This document shows positions 2,118 to 16,357 of a stretch of 20,814 bases of DNA, one piece after another. Origin of the DNA: a virus; IMG/VR virus record IMGVR_UViG_3300028548_008839, positions 1 through 20,814 of that record; one strand, 5' to 3'. Each line of letters opens with the position of its first letter. Within the stretch, counting starts at the first letter, position 1. The position numbers and the translations under genes are program-made. The notes under the pieces are model-generated. The model was not told the origin of the DNA. It did not search any database and saw nothing but the letters and a program-made list of their open reading frames with translations.

Positions 2118-2194
2118 GCGCTCGTAGCTCAGTTGGATAGAGCATCGGCCTTCTAAGCCGATTGTCATAGGTTCGAATCCTATCGAGCGCACCA
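2118..2194 (+). tRNA. tRNA-Arg(TCT)
   Basis: A full cloverleaf can be drawn by eye. The acceptor stem is GCGCTCG (2118-2124) with CGAGCGC (2184-2190). The D stem is GCTC/GAGC, the anticodon stem TCGGC/GCCGA, and the T arm ATAGG-TTCGAAT-CCTAT. The seven-base loop CTTCTAA has anticodon TCT (2152-2154), which reads AGA. Discriminator A and CCA are encoded. AGA is the common Arg codon in the neighbouring phage genes, so the tRNA probably supplements the host pool. Confidence 0.96.
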
Positions 2195-2203
2195 ATTTAC
2201 TAA

Positions 2204-2280
2204 GGGCCCATAGCTCAGCTGGTTAGAGCATCGGACTCATAATCCGTTGGTCCTAGGTTCGAGTCCTAGTGGGCCCACCA
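2204..2280 (+). tRNA. tRNA with CAT anticodon, likely Ile2 (AUA) rather than Met
   Basis: The acceptor stem is GGGCCCA (2204-2210) with TGGGCCC (2270-2276). The D stem is GCTC/GAGC and the T arm CTAGG-TTCGAGT-CCTAG. The anticodon loop CTCATAA carries CAT (2238-2240), and CCA is encoded. The pair 27-43 is T-T, the only mismatch. Pairs 1-72 are G-C, so it is not an initiator tRNA. Positions 4-69 and 5-68 are both C-G, the feature used by E. coli TilS to choose tRNA-Ile2 for lysidine modification; elongator tRNA-Met has U4-A69 and A5-U68. AUA-reading Ile2 is therefore favoured by inference. Confidence 0.93.
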
Positions 2281-3833: not shown

Positions 3834-3996
3834 GAATGAAGAAATTGATATTCTTAGGAAAAAATGTGACATGCAAGAAAAAATTTTACAAGATGTAAAT
3901 TTTCTTTTAAAATATTACACTAACAACATTGATAGGAAACTGCAACAATATGAGCAATTTGTCGAATCTAGCGAAAACAATAAAGAATCAAAATAA
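3820..3996 (+). CDS. 58-residue charged helical protein
   Basis: ATG 3820 lies inside the end of the methyltransferase gene and the frame ends at TAA 3994-3996, inside the start of the oxygenase gene. The 58-residue product (MKISENEEIDILRKKCDMQE...) is rich in Lys, Glu, Asn and Gln, with hydrophobic residues at helical spacing (I-L-V-L-L about residues 9-31), so it is probably one long amphipathic helix or coiled coil. It fills what would otherwise be a 116-base gap and overlaps both neighbours, which supports coding. No family recognised; it may be a small adaptor or a coupling peptide. Confidence 0.55.
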   Translation: MKISENEEIDILRKKCDMQEKILQDVNFLLKYYTNNIDRKLQQYEQFVESSENNKESK

Positions 3997-4573
3997 ACCA
4001 TCAAATATGTTTAATAGGTCACCACATTCTAAAAATTTTACAGAAAAATTTCCTGTTATTAAAGTTGACTTGCTTCCTTATCAAGAAGCAACGTTTTATG
4101 GCAAACACTGGTCTTCGCCGTTAAATGAAAATCTCGAAAAACAAATTCGAGAATGTGGTGATAAACAAAATAAAAAAACTAATGTCAAAGCACAAATGAC
4201 CAATTGGTTTATGCATCATGATTCTACTGAATTTCAGTGGGTTTGTGATAGAGCAATTGATTTGGCCACAAAGAATAATCCACACAAAATTGGTATGATT
4301 GCTTATGATTGTTGGGGAGCAATATATTGTGAAGGTGATTATACAATTATGCACAACCATTGGCCAAATCTTTGGAGTTTTGTTTATTATGTGAACTGCC
4401 CACCTCAATCGGCACCATTACTATTGAATAACTCTGAAAAATCAATTACAATCCTGCCAAGTGCAGGCATGATGGTTCTTTTTCCTGGCTGGATTAATCA
4501 CTCAGTGCCCGCGCATGTAGGCGAAGATAGAATTGTTGTTGCTGGAAATCTTGTTTGGAATTTTCAATTGTAA
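3950..4573 (+). CDS. 2OG-Fe(II) oxygenase family protein
   Basis: I chose ATG 3950, which has AGGAAA upstream at 3934-3939; the in-frame TTG at 3929 is less likely. The 207-residue protein has the double-stranded beta-helix signature of 2-oxoglutarate/Fe(II) dioxygenases found in many marine T4-like phages. HNHWPNLWSFVYYV at 135-148 carries the first iron-ligand region. LFPGWINHSVPAH at 177-189 carries the distal His184. DRIVVAGN at 193-200 has Arg194, placed to bind the 2OG carboxylate. The N-terminal 30 residues are polar and probably flexible. The substrate is unknown; hydroxylation of a virion or host protein is the usual suggestion for phage members. It overlaps the preceding small gene by 47 bases and is the last gene before the late promoter at 4588. 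Confidence 0.85.
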   Translation: MSNLSNLAKTIKNQNKPSNMFNRSPHSKNFTEKFPVIKVDLLPYQEATFYGKHWSSPLNENLEKQIRECGDKQNKKTNVKAQMTNWFMHHDSTEFQWVCDRAIDLATKNNPHKIGMIAYDCWGAIYCEGDYTIMHNHWPNLWSFVYYVNCPPQSAPLLLNNSEKSITILPSAGMMVLFPGWINHSVPAHVGEDRIVVAGNLVWNFQL

Positions 4574-4585
4574 CATAGTTATATC

Positions 4586-4620
4586 ATTATAAATACTTTT
4601 ATAATAGGGGTATTTATAAT
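4586..4620 (+). promoter_or_regulatory. 11-bp inverted repeat spanning late promoter and start codon
   Basis: ATTATAAATAC (4586-4596) is the exact reverse complement of GTATTTATAAT (4610-4620), with a 13-base loop. The left arm holds the late promoter. The right arm begins at the last G of the AGGGG ribosome binding site and ends on the first base of the TTG start codon. Read-through RNA would contain both arms and could fold. RNA started at the late promoter (about 4600) would lack the left arm and stay open. This is the arrangement known for T4 late genes such as e and soc. Confidence 0.6.
4588..4595 (+). promoter_or_regulatory. T4-type late promoter for the hub operon
   Basis: TATAAATA is a perfect match to the T4 late-promoter -10 element recognised by the phage sigma-like factor gp55. 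It lies 24 bases before the start of the gp5-like gene, so transcription should start near 4600, leaving a leader of about 20 bases that keeps the AGGGG at 4606-4610. The same octamer occurs at two other gene starts in this window and nowhere inside a gene that I could find. Confidence 0.85.
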
Positions 4621-5639
4621 TGAAAGAAATTTCAAACTTTGCTGGTATGGATGGATTTTCTTGGTTTATCGGCCGAGTTGAAGCACGCGTGGTTTCTGAC
4701 GGAACCACAAAAGAAATACCTGTCTATGATGAAGATGATGGTAGTTTGGTTGGCACAACTTTCAAAAGTTCCGCCGGAACTGATCCATTACGATTAGGCA
4801 GAGTAAAAGTTCGCGTCATAGGACACCATAGCGAAGATATTACGCAGTTGCCTACTGAGCATTTGCCGTGGGCAACTGTTATGCATCCAGTAACTTCAGC
4901 TGGTTCAAATGGAGTTGGATCAACAGCCAATCTTATAGAAGGCACAACCGTATTTGGTTTCTTTTTAGATGCATTAGACAAACAACATCCTGTTATTATT
5001 GGAACTATCCCCGGCCGTGATTCTCCTGGCACAAATAGTGATGTTAGAACATCATATGCACCACAGCAATTAGACAATGCGCCCAATATAGATTCTATTC
5101 CTGACATTATTGGACAGGATATAGAAGATTGTTTGTATAAAAAAGAAATTTATGGTAAGTTTGATGCATCATCTCAATCATGGCCTGATATGAAAGAATT
5201 TACCCGTGGCAATAATCCTAAACTTAGATCTATGTTTAATCAAATTGGTTTTAAAAACTTAACAGGTGAAAACACGGCATGGTGTGCCGCATTTGTAGCT
5301 CATATTTTAAAATGTGCAGGATATCCGTCCTTGCCTGGAAATAAATTGGGAGCCAGAAATTATCAAAACTATCCTGGCGATGTGATATGGAATGGCAATG
5401 ATAATCCAATACCCTATAACAAATTTCAGAAAAATGATATCATGGTATTTGAGCGTCCAGGCCGTGTTGGTGCTGGGCATGTTGGATTATATCATAGCAC
5501 CAACAAAGGTAAACTTAGAATGGTCAGTGGAAATGCTGGTAATACATTAAAATTGGATAAAAATGGCAGAGATCCTAATAGGTTTGGACGAAAACTAATT
5601 AGAGTTATCAGACCAATAAAATCGACACTAGAAACATGA
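4620..5639 (+). CDS. 5: gp5-like baseplate hub protein with CHAP/NlpC-type peptidoglycan hydrolase domain
   Basis: This 339-residue protein is made of two parts. Residues 11-135 (DGFSWFIGRVEARV...DPLRLGRVKVRVIG...LPWATVMHPVTSAG...GTTVFGFFLDALDKQHPVIIGTIPG) match the N-terminal OB-fold of T4 gp5 and VgrG-like hub proteins. Residues 215-315 carry AWCAAFVAHIL (Cys222), GDVIW, NDIMVFERPG, GAGHVGLYH (His287) and SGNAGN. This is the Cys/His pattern of CHAP or NlpC/P60-type endopeptidase/amidase domains (TIGR02594-like). T4 gp5 has a lysozyme domain in this place. The expected role is the hub at the tail tip, opening the cell wall during injection. The beta-helical needle of T4 gp5 is missing here and is encoded by 7222-8205. 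I chose TTG 4620 because AGGGG lies 9 bases upstream; the in-frame ATG 4647 is possible. Confidence 0.9.
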   Translation: MKEISNFAGMDGFSWFIGRVEARVVSDGTTKEIPVYDEDDGSLVGTTFKSSAGTDPLRLGRVKVRVIGHHSEDITQLPTEHLPWATVMHPVTSAGSNGVGSTANLIEGTTVFGFFLDALDKQHPVIIGTIPGRDSPGTNSDVRTSYAPQQLDNAPNIDSIPDIIGQDIEDCLYKKEIYGKFDASSQSWPDMKEFTRGNNPKLRSMFNQIGFKNLTGENTAWCAAFVAHILKCAGYPSLPGNKLGARNYQNYPGDVIWNGNDNPIPYNKFQKNDIMVFERPGRVGAGHVGLYHSTNKGKLRMVSGNAGNTLKLDKNGRDPNRFGRKLIRVIRPIKSTLET

Positions 5640-5649
5640 GTATTTAAAA

Positions 5650-7209
5650 ATGTCAAAACCAGCTGGCCGAGTAATATCAAAACTAAGCAATCTTGCTCTT
5701 GATGAGTTTGGAAATTATCTCATAGGAACTTCGAGTATTGATTTGCCACTCATTCCTGATAATGCCGCAGAAATTGTAAAAGGTATAAAATTAGCAACAA
5801 AAGGTTTGTCAGGTTTACCGGGCATACCGGGTTTACCAGAATTGCCTGATGTTGCTAAACAATTTTCAGGTAAAATTGAAAATGTAAAAGACAAGCTTCA
5901 AGAATCAATCACTAATATATTAGGAAATTTAACAACTGATGCATCAATTACATCAGATTTAAAGGGTAAAATGGAAAATGTGGTTGGTGAACTTCGCAGT
6001 GTAATTCCAAAAATTCCATCTTTACCCAATCTAAATTTACAAGATGAATTGGGGAGTTTGCTTTCTTTTGATGTTGGTTCTACAAAATTTATCAGTTCGT
6101 TTGCAAATATTAAAGATAAATTTGGTGATACATTATCAGGCAAAGGTATTGATTTAGATGGAATAATTAATAATTTAAAAGATGCATCAAATCCTCTTGT
6201 TTTAAGTCAGTTAGGAGAATTAGATACAATAGTTGACAGTATGAAATTAAAAATTAAAACTTTGGGAAATTCTGGGGCAATAATTGATCCTGAATTAGTT
6301 GAAGTTTTACAACTTCCAGAATTATTTGATGAAGAAGATATTGAACATTATGGATCTGGTTCTCGAAAAGAATTTATTTACAATATGCCAGATTTAGTTG
6401 AAAAAAATCTTCCTTCAGTAAGTAAAGAATCGTTAAAAGGTTTAAAATCTCAGCTGAGTGCACAATTGGGGCAGATAGAATCAGTTAAAAATTTATTATC
6501 TGATCAAATTGGTAGTGCAGGAACAGATTTGCCCGATATGATATCTAAAATTGTTCCAAATCTTGAAATGCCTGCACTTGGTGGTGATGTTATTGAAAAA
6601 GCAAAAAAGGCAATTCAATCTGCTGTAGATTCTGTTCAAGAAGAACCTGCCGAATTAAATTTAAATCCAGAAATAGTTAGATTATCAAGCAAATTACGTG
6701 ATAATCTAACAGCTTTTCCTATTGGAGATGGAAACGATAAGGGAAAGATTATTTGGAACGATATTCTAAAAAAATCTGAATTAGTGTTGCCAGATATAAA
6801 AAAGAATATTCCTGTTACAGAATTAGTAGACAAACCAGTAGATATAAAGGGGCTGATGGATAATTTAGTAAAAGAATTAGAAAATGCTGATCTTGGGCTT
6901 GGTGTGTTTTCTGGGAAATTAGCTGGTGAAGGAGATCTTTCAGATTTATTTAAACAAGCAGAAAATTCATTATCAGAAATACCAATAGAATTATTTGAAC
7001 TTGATAACAATTCTCCTTTAAATATTCCTGCCGTTGATGATTTTGCAAAGATTACCAAAACTTTAGATGATCTCTCTAAAAAAATTAATCCAACATTAGA
7101 TCAAGGACTTTCTGATATAAGTTCATCACAAACAACATTTAGTTCTGATGCTGGTGATTTTACTGGATCCCAAGTAACAACATTTAGTTCTGATGCTGGT
7201 GGATATTAA
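5650..7209 (+). CDS. Putative hub-associated structural protein (519 aa)
   Basis: I do not recognise a family. The 519-residue product lies between the two halves of a gp5-like hub/needle, so a tail-tip or baseplate role is likely. Residues about 40-70 hold a Pro/Gly-rich stretch (GLSGLPGIPGLPELPD). The rest alternates amphipathic helices rich in Lys, Asp, Ser and Leu with short Pro breaks, as in IPKIPSLPNLN and MPDLVEKNLPSVS. No transmembrane or signal sequence is present. The C-terminal 25 residues contain a duplicated TTFSSDAG and end in GGY. The mostly helical make-up and size (T4 gp29 tape measure is 590 residues) make a tape-measure/hub protein conceivable, but I see no sequence match. 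The start has only a weak ribosome binding site and may be coupled to the gene 10 bases upstream. Confidence 0.8.
   Translation: MSKPAGRVISKLSNLALDEFGNYLIGTSSIDLPLIPDNAAEIVKGIKLATKGLSGLPGIPGLPELPDVAKQFSGKIENVKDKLQESITNILGNLTTDASITSDLKGKMENVVGELRSVIPKIPSLPNLNLQDELGSLLSFDVGSTKFISSFANIKDKFGDTLSGKGIDLDGIINNLKDASNPLVLSQLGELDTIVDSMKLKIKTLGNSGAIIDPELVEVLQLPELFDEEDIEHYGSGSRKEFIYNMPDLVEKNLPSVSKESLKGLKSQLSAQLGQIESVKNLLSDQIGSAGTDLPDMISKIVPNLEMPALGGDVIEKAKKAIQSAVDSVQEEPAELNLNPEIVRLSSKLRDNLTAFPIGDGNDKGKIIWNDILKKSELVLPDIKKNIPVTELVDKPVDIKGLMDNLVKELENADLGLGVFSGKLAGEGDLSDLFKQAENSLSEIPIELFELDNNSPLNIPAVDDFAKITKTLDDLSKKINPTLDQGLSDISSSQTTFSSDAGDFTGSQVTTFSSDAGGY
7131..7201 (+). repeat. 26-bp direct repeat, 45-bp period
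   Basis: AACAACATTTAGTTCTGATG plus CTGGTG is present exactly at 7131-7156 and 7176-7201. The 45-base period keeps the reading frame and encodes the duplicated TTFSSDAG at the C-terminus of the 519-residue protein. Confidence 0.9.
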
Positions 7210-7221
7210 AGGAAAATTATA

Positions 7222-8205
7222 ATGAATGATAAAACTATATACGGAAGTGGACCAAATCCTAAACATTTTGGTATACCACCAGGCACAGAAGGTGGTAGAA
7301 ACCAAGAAGATACTCAAGCTACCAAACTTGCTCGTGCATTGCAAGGAGATCGTGAATTTCCAACAGCAAGTAAGACTCATTTAATTTCGTTGGGCGAAAC
7401 AGGCAAACCAGAACCTCGTGGAACTGAAACAATACCAAGATATGCTGGAGTTGATCCAAGCGATCCTGTTTATCTCAGCGCACAGTATCCATATGTAAAA
7501 ATTCAAAGAAGCGAAAGCGGGCATATAGATGTTATCGATGATACTTTAGGTGGCGAAAGATTATTAAAACAACATAAAACAGGAACATACGAAGAATATT
7601 TACCAAATGGTGACAAATCCGTTATGGTTGTTGGCGATGGATATGAAGTTATTGCTGGTAAAAAATCAATATTCATTAATGCTGCGGGAAGAGGTGATAG
7701 AGAAGATGGGTTAGTCATAACTGTTAATGGTAATGTGCGGCAATTAGTCAAAGGCGATTATGTTTTAGAAGTTGAAGGTGATTATCATGAAAAAGTTCAC
7801 GGAAATAAATTTACAAAGATAGGTGCAGGTATTGGTGGTAATCATAAAGTAGAAATCAGAGGAAATTATTCTGAACAAATTAATGAAGATTACAAATCTC
7901 GCATTACTGGTAATTATGATGCAACAATAGAAAAGAATAGAACAACATTAATCAACGGTAATGATTCACTTGGTGTTGTAGAAGATATTTCTCTCATATC
8001 AACCACAGGTAATGTTTTGTTGTTCGCTATTAAAAATGTATCCATTAGTGCCAATGATAGTGCAGCAGGAATTATTTCATTAAAGGCCGCTGGTGTAGTT
8101 GACATTCGTTCTGTTGGACAAACCAACATTGTTGCAGGAACTATACTTGATCTTGATTCTGGTGGTGGTTCTCCAACATCAACAAATAGAATTAATTTGA
8201 ATTAA
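7222..8205 (+). CDS. gp5C-like beta-helical needle/spike protein
   Basis: The 327-residue protein has AAAGGA (7208-7213) 8 bases before ATG 7222. Residues 90-150 (PYVKIQRSESGHIDVIDDT...GTYEEYLPNG...GDGYEVIAGKK) match the domain that precedes the needle in gp5/VgrG-like proteins. From residue 168 there is an eight-residue repeat of the VxGxxxxx kind: hydrophobic positions 168, 176, 184, 192, 200, then 212, 220, 228, 236, 244 and 252, many followed two residues later by Gly. This is the signature of the triple-stranded beta-helix of T4 gp5C. The 200-212 step has four extra residues. The C-terminal part (about 255-310) is beta-rich without the strict octad. The N-terminal 85 residues are polar and unrecognised and may anchor it to the hub. 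It would form the membrane-piercing needle below the gp5-like protein. Confidence 0.9.
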   Translation: MNDKTIYGSGPNPKHFGIPPGTEGGRNQEDTQATKLARALQGDREFPTASKTHLISLGETGKPEPRGTETIPRYAGVDPSDPVYLSAQYPYVKIQRSESGHIDVIDDTLGGERLLKQHKTGTYEEYLPNGDKSVMVVGDGYEVIAGKKSIFINAAGRGDREDGLVITVNGNVRQLVKGDYVLEVEGDYHEKVHGNKFTKIGAGIGGNHKVEIRGNYSEQINEDYKSRITGNYDATIEKNRTTLINGNDSLGVVEDISLISTTGNVLLFAIKNVSISANDSAAGIISLKAAGVVDIRSVGQTNIVAGTILDLDSGGGSPTSTNRINLN

Positions 8206-8243
8206 TATGATTTTTCTTTATAAAATTATAGTGAATGATTCCT

Positions 8244-8251
8244 TATAAATA
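8244..8251 (+). promoter_or_regulatory. T4-type late promoter for the wedge operon
   Basis: This is a perfect TATAAATA in the 68-base gap before the gp25 gene. Transcription would start near 8257, just upstream of the CGGAG ribosome binding site (8263-8267). It should drive gp25, gp6 and the gp7-like gene, which are joined end to end. Confidence 0.85.
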
Positions 8252-8273
8252 ATTAAAAATAACGGAGTGTTCA

Positions 8274-8741
8274 GTGGCCATAGTAGAAAGAACGGGTAGT
8301 TTTAAAGAACTGACAGCACTTAGAGATGCAGAAAGACAAAACAATTCTACTCTAAATGTTAGGCAGTATAGAGATCTTGATTTGTTCTTTACTCGTAAAT
8401 CTAAGGACAATGATGTAAATGTTCTTACAAATATTACAGCAATTAAAAGATCAGTTCGAAATTTAGTTTTAACTGATTTTTATGAAAAACCTTTTCATCC
8501 AGAAATAGGTTCTGGTGTTAGAGGTTTGTTGTTTGAAATTGTTGGTCCATTGACGGCGATTGCATTAGCACAATCTATTGAAGATGTTATAACTAACTAT
8601 GAACCTAGAGCTTCATTGATTAATATTGATGTTATTGATAATATGGATTCTAATGCTTATGATATAACAATAGAATTTGAGGTGGTAAATGCGCCAGGGG
8701 AAATAATTCAACTAGACGTACTTTTGGAGGCGTTGAGATAA
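8274..8741 (+). CDS. 25: gp25-like baseplate wedge subunit
   Basis: The 155-residue protein belongs to the gp25 family of contractile injection systems, whose members bind the inner baseplate wedge and trigger sheath contraction. The matching pattern is DLDLFFT at 34-40, DVNVLTNITAIKRSVRNLVL at 47-66, FYEKPFHPEIGSGV at 69-82, NYEPR at 108-112 and a closing strand AYDITIEFEVVNAPGE. Length is close to other marine T4-like gp25 proteins. The start is GTG with CGGAG (8263-8267) 6 bases upstream; no better ATG exists. Its TAA overlaps the ATG of the gp6 gene (TAATG at 8739-8743), which indicates translational coupling of two proteins that contact each other in the wedge. Confidence 0.96.
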   Translation: MAIVERTGSFKELTALRDAERQNNSTLNVRQYRDLDLFFTRKSKDNDVNVLTNITAIKRSVRNLVLTDFYEKPFHPEIGSGVRGLLFEIVGPLTAIALAQSIEDVITNYEPRASLINIDVIDNMDSNAYDITIEFEVVNAPGEIIQLDVLLEALR

Positions 8742-16349: not shown

Positions 16350-16357
16350 TATAAATA
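16350..16357 (+). promoter_or_regulatory. T4-type late promoter for the fibre/gp8 unit
   Basis: This perfect TATAAATA lies in the 34-base gap between the giant gene and the next start. A GAGGA ribosome binding site (16367-16371) follows before ATG 16380. It should drive the fibre-like gene, gp8 and the DUF4815-type gene. Confidence 0.85.

Follow-up and report, generated by a model that had tools for sequence, protein, structure and literature searches.

A predicted hairpin across a late promoter at the start of the baseplate hub gene in a T4-like virus and its relatives

Why does a late promoter lie inside an inverted repeat whose second arm ends on the start codon of a baseplate gene? The window analysed here is the whole 20.8-kb stretch of a virus record, a fragment of a T4-like myovirus. 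The initial annotation had pointed to eleven perfect base pairs around a 13-base gap at positions 4586-4620, and the same arms were recovered both by reading the sequence and by a repeat search. The left arm ATTATAAATAC (4586-4596) and the right arm GTATTTATAAT (4610-4620) are 100% complementary and are separated by TTTTATAATAGGG (4597-4609, 13 nt). The late promoter that had been placed in the left arm is confirmed by an exact match to TATAAATA at 4588-4595, 24 nt 5' of the start codon TTG 4620. The features of the locus and its controls are as follows.

2118-2280, plus strand: two tRNA genes, Arg-TCT (2118-2194) and Met-CAT (2204-2280), from ARAGORN and Rfam, in the non-structural region upstream of the hub gene
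3929-4573, plus strand: 2OG-Fe(II) oxygenase gene, upstream and co-directional (phrog_81 1.5e-24, PF13759)
4586-4601, plus strand: 5' strand of the predicted RNA stem, with 11 perfect pairs at 4586-4596 and then a C/U tract pairing with the Shine-Dalgarno (SD) sequence
4588-4595, plus strand: T4-type late promoter TATAAATA, exact match within the left arm
4605-4620, plus strand: 3' strand of the predicted RNA stem, covering the SD, its last base being the first base of the start codon
4606-4610, plus strand: SD-like AGGGG, 9 nt 5' of TTG 4620
4611-4618, minus strand: exact match to TATAAATA, a by-product of the palindrome
4620-5639, plus strand: N-terminal part of a baseplate hub gene 5 homologue (phrog_1922 5e-37, PF06714 8e-14)
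8244-8251, plus strand: late promoter of gp25, a control, with a weak imperfect hairpin
16350-16357, plus strand: late promoter of a gp9/gp10-like gene, a control, with no hairpin beyond chance

The hub ORF read from TTG 4620 is 339 aa long and contains a Gp5 OB domain and a TIGR02594-like hydrolase domain (residues 199-311, 1e-8, under that model's curated cut-off); the label "peptidoglycan hydrolase" is due to the latter. The C-terminal part of gp5 is encoded by a separate ORF (7222-8205), which is followed by gp25, gp6 and others. The OB/hydrolase and C-terminal parts are separated by a 519-aa ORF (5650-7209), so that gene 5 is split; this ORF has no PHROG or Pfam match and only three relatives in viral contigs. 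TTG 4620, which had been proposed as the start, is likely the true one and is favoured over ATG 4647 because the SD stands at a workable distance and because relatives align upstream of Met 4647 (SNFAGMDGF vs NYFMGLDGF). The 2OG-Fe(II) oxygenase gene ends 12 nt 5' of the stem. The upstream genes are on the same strand as the hub gene and a scan found no terminator-like site between the oxygenase gene and the stem, which is consistent with read-through into the hub gene. An Rfam search of the window returned only the two tRNAs. A sigma-70 scan of the upstream region gave 38 matches against 25 expected and is too unspecific for placing early promoters.

The predicted RNA stem is longer than the DNA repeat. 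It has 16 bp (4586-4601 with 4605-4620) closed by a 3-nt loop, and its extension joins CUUUUA (4596-4601) to UAGGGG (4605-4610) by one C-G, three G·U and two A-U pairs. The initial annotation had let the right arm run from the ribosome binding site; this does not hold for the perfect 11 bp, which include only the last G of AGGGG, and does hold for the predicted 16-bp stem, which in the read-through RNA takes up the whole SD as well as the first base of TTG 4620. The stem alone folds at -10.7 kcal/mol, whereas shuffles of 4586-4620 average -2.2 (z -5.3) and none of 200 was as good. T4 late promoters span positions -13 to -6 (PMC1524935), a placement that puts the predicted late start at about 4601. 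Provided that transcription starts there as in T4, the late RNA would lack the 5' strand of the helix; in predicted RNAs beginning at 4601 or 4602 the SD is unpaired. The computed cost of exposing SD and start is about 9.7 kcal/mol in the read-through RNA versus 2.4 in the RNA from 4601. The same calculation for T4 gene e, used as a control, gave 16.3 versus 1.2 kcal/mol for the long and the late RNA, an extra cost of about 15. Folding with and without the left arm came out as had been foreseen, with the SD hidden in the long RNA and free in the late form. The duplex is rich in AU and GU pairs, so repression may be partial.

With good confidence, we read the repeat as a translational gate that overlaps the promoter and would hide the SD of the hub gene. 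What the analysis shows, by computation, is the sequence, the predicted fold, its loss in the late form and the conservation of pairing. RNA entering from the tRNA and oxygenase region would carry the left arm, form the 16-bp hairpin and conceal the SD and the start region. RNA from the late promoter would begin at about 4601, without the left arm, and leave the SD open. The hub protein would then be made from its own late promoter only. Where late RNA starts, that any RNA reads through, that it is repressed and to what end are inferred from this. The purpose could be either timing, by which the wall-cutting hub is kept from the early cell, or insulation, by which its dosage is set by its own promoter; the two are inseparable from sequence.

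Such a device has precedents in T4. The initial annotation had invoked the control of late genes such as e and soc by leader hairpins, and this is documented: in the longer RNAs of e, soc, 49 and I-TevI the SD and/or the AUG lie in an inhibitory helix, the late RNAs of e lack the 5' strand of the stem, and the long form of e yields about 100-fold less lysozyme (PMC3014915). Features of these switches are found here as well, namely a late promoter immediately upstream, a predicted helix over SD and start, and a structure kept in relatives. T4 gene e has its late promoter(s) directly 5' of the gene and its ribosome binding site and start sequestered in the long RNA, with the same pattern of opening cost as computed here; its product is a lysis enzyme, whereas the window gene encodes a baseplate hub. 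The other three T4 genes are alike in the SD/AUG helix, as described, and again differ as genes (PMC3014915). A further RNA structure at the start region of a baseplate gene is the "split" initiation region of T4-type gene 25, but that structure aids translation by shortening the spacing between SD and AUG (PMC3014915), while the window hairpin should inhibit it. The mechanism would thus be that of e, soc, 49 and I-TevI. We found no earlier record of a leader switch at gene 5 in the literature searched, which lay mostly outside subscription journals; marine T4-like phages appear in PMC3014915 in a figure legend, only as lacking gene e.

The leading alternative differs from the reading above in purpose only, the hairpin mechanism being common to both. 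It holds that the hairpin is an insulator rather than a timer, so that hub output is set at all times by its own promoter, for stoichiometry or for protection from cargo transcription. The gene context bears on it. Among 68 dereplicated hub leaders with enough upstream DNA, a hairpin was scored where the extra opening cost was at least 4 kcal/mol. This was the case for 27 of 36 leaders with a late promoter and for 0 of 32 without one. Of 23 hubs behind a 2OG gene, all but one carry a late promoter (22), with a hairpin in 18 of these; of 19 behind a tail gene (phrog_350-like), one carries a promoter and none a hairpin. The hairpin occurs where the hub owns a late promoter, typically after an oxygenase/tRNA cargo region, and is absent behind a tail gene, which is what a device against read-through predicts. 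Exceptions are the hubs of the cultured cyanophages L251, L253 and L254, with a late promoter and no such hairpin, and S-CAM22, in which a 2OG gene lies two genes upstream. This distribution favours insulation, and a hub enzyme in the early cytoplasm would not obviously be harmful. Against it, the proven T4 members e and I-TevI gate early or middle RNA (PMC3014915). We give insulation as the purpose slightly less than an even chance.

The gate finds its strongest support in the comparison between leaders. Viral contigs and cultured phages supplied 199 hub leaders with a late promoter near the start, of which 41 remained after removal of similar ones. Many uncultured marine relatives have the hairpin, in other sequence, at the same place before the hub gene. 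Some leaders have the late promoter and lack the hairpin, as in the cultured cyanophages L251, L253 and L254 and in LIMEstone (L258). The hubs of T4 (g5), KVP40 (5), HTVC008M, Mosig and a Rhizobium phage have neither a late promoter at the start nor a hairpin, and T4 gene 5 is in this respect unlike the window hub.

These leaders also speak on whether the repeat is instead a two-way late promoter, with two TATAAATA boxes facing apart and no role for RNA. An exact minus-strand TATAAATA does stand at 4618-4611, and a blind scan for TATAAATA...TATTTATA gave many loci flanked by gene starts on either side. But the left-hand neighbour is a plus-strand gene, no convincing minus-strand gene begins at the site, the nearest relatives lose the minus box (GTGTTTGTAAT) and keep the RNA pairing by G-U, and such a box is present in only 2 of the 41 hub leaders. 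A divergent promoter is therefore very improbable, and the minus-strand match, which has no matching minus-strand gene, is judged incidental. The scan itself collected palindromes of the form TATAAATA-N8..28-TATTTATA (L042-L121). About one third of these 80 viral-contig loci lie between opposite-strand gene starts, often with an ORF of about 148 aa on one side, and are divergent late promoter pairs, not hairpin switches. Since the scan often returns such pairs, a TATAAATA palindrome alone is no evidence, and its loci were left out of the hub-leader census.

Could an AT-rich promoter and an AT-rich leader be complementary by accident? Perfect 11-bp inverted repeats with loops of at most 25 nt are not rare, as there are three of them in the AT-rich 20.8-kb window. 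A perfect complement of at least 11 bp that overlaps the promoter, by contrast, came up only 29 times in 20,000 rounds of dinucleotide shuffling of the downstream bases, a chance of about 0.0015. The hub class was then compared by swapping arms, each left arm being folded against the right arms of other leaders, which keeps the composition of both promoter and SD and so controls for them. In the 41 non-redundant leaders own arms reached -8.87 kcal/mol versus -6.26 for swapped arms (z -7.9), and as whole-hairpin chimeras z was -9.0 to -10.7. The whole-hairpin swap gave z -1.0 to -1.3 for 39 gp25 leaders and z -0.5 to -1.2 for 34 other late leaders. Opening SD and start in the longer RNA costs a median of 7.6 kcal/mol more at hubs, as against 1.3 at gp25 and 1.1 at the other genes (P ~2e-6). 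Within one family of 30 leaders own arms beat swapped ones (z -4.3, p 1e-4). The leaders are related, so that these P-values treat them as more independent than they are; that the stems differ so much in sequence is the stronger argument. Hub leaders beat swaps that keep composition and the other late leaders do not, which with the shuffle result makes accident a far-fetched account of the repeat. A first census that mixed all late promoters had a modest mean effect, and splitting it by gene concentrated the effect at the hub. Column-based covariation of the 30-leader family was set aside, as differing loop lengths kept it from registering the inner helix; the arm-swap test was used instead.

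The two other late promoters of the window had been said to show no such inverted repeat. This stands for the promoter at 16350, whose leader fold has z +0.9, and fails for gp25 at 8244, where an imperfect hairpin of -8 kcal/mol pairs the SD, no better than shuffles (z -0.9). In the gp25 leader (8230-8285) the SD pairs with bases 5' of the late promoter, at an opening cost of 7.8 vs 2.4 kcal/mol. With shorter arms the gp25 leaders reach p 0.013, and a weak pairing effect there is possible; as a class the gp25 hairpin is not clearly significant.

Conservation of the pairing in relatives had been named as a check, and the pairing is kept through changed letters, in the arm swaps as in the alignment of the window's subfamily. 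The window's own leader was found once, no cultured phage gave a nucleotide match to the window, and the contigs of the 98-99% relatives (L162/L243, L242/L001, L244) run out before the leader is reached; the closest leaders for comparison belong to hubs about 40% identical in protein. In the window's subfamily (L163, L261-L270) the promoter arm is invariant, and opposite it the right arm has moved away from GTATTTATAAT, to GTGTTTGTAAT and GTGTATATTTGT. There 91.5% of cells are paired vs 37-55% in slid controls; four pairs vary only among standard pairs, and no pair in the subfamily has changes on both sides. Farther away the stems are different sequences altogether: AUCCUUAUAAAUAGUC/GACUAUUUAAAGGGAU with an AAAA loop in L288 (-22.4 for the longer leader; L352 has -21.3), AAAUAAUUCU-GAAA-AGGAUUAUUU in L167, UUCAUAUAAA/UUUAUAUGAA with the AUG included in L200, and AAUCCCUUGU/ACAAGGGAUU with the promoter in the loop in phage Melnitz.

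The least probable reading, that the repeat is a DNA palindrome for a dimeric regulator or an intrinsic terminator, can draw on the perfect DNA symmetry in the window and on Melnitz-type leaders in which a U-run after the stem could terminate, but relatives' RNA pairing through G-U breaks the symmetry (31 of 38 leaders with at least 6 RNA pairs have G-U), the window stem is followed by UGAAAG with no U-run, and no terminator was called in the interval. In the nearest relatives, G·U changes keep the RNA stem and break both the DNA palindrome and the minus-strand TATAAATA. This way of keeping the pairing argues for RNA rather than DNA as the form that matters.

What the SD-hiding hairpin would mean can be put in one picture, to which we give an even chance. 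In the broad group of marine T4-like phages to which the window belongs, a late-promoter/SD hairpin may have arisen again and again where cargo genes (2OG, tRNA) give way to the hub operon, and transcription of the cargo would then yield no hub; stem sequences and the position of the promoter (in the arm or the loop, sometimes with a possible terminator) would turn over while the pairing is kept. Apart from this picture, the gate itself would carry a classic mode of T4 control over to the gene of a core virion part in uncultured ocean phages, and its rule is simple: no hairpin unless the hub has a late promoter of its own, typically behind cargo genes. In ocean phages regulation is poorly known and middle promoters have not been found: Melnitz, a Methylophilales phage, was reported to carry 31 early promoters, 15 late ones, few terminators and none of the middle type (PMC9004378), and in pelagimyophages late promoters were not predictable by the method tried (PMC7029224). 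As the arm-swap test shows, comparison of sequences can be enough to reveal such switches, with no need of transcript data.

Phage Melnitz offers a cultured test case. As in the window, a stem across the late promoter of its hub leader hides the SD and a tRNA lies upstream; unlike in the window, the promoter is in the loop and a U-run stands 3' of the stem, so termination may add to the block. We found no description of this hairpin in its paper, as far as searched (PMC9004378). A strong stem followed by a U-run is seen in the Melnitz-type leaders L249:915-955 (ACAAGGGAUUUUUUAU) and L377 ~1450-1495 (GGGGUUUUCUUU), and the hairpin could there also be an intrinsic terminator for the upstream tRNA transcript.

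Three further observations concern the leaders and their surroundings. The contigs of the closest relatives (L001/L242, L162/L243 and L244) all break off within the hub gene or shortly 5' of it, 25-740 bp ahead of the ORF at 5650, which suggests a strain-variable stretch that breaks assembly near this gene. GNRA-type tetraloops (GAAA, GAGA) close the SD-hiding stem in the hub leaders L167:1850-1885 and L171. Two overlapping late promoters CATTATAAATAGTATAAATAATG with alternative stems are found in the hub leaders L198:60-105 and L204, an arrangement that recalls the two late promoters of T4 gene e.
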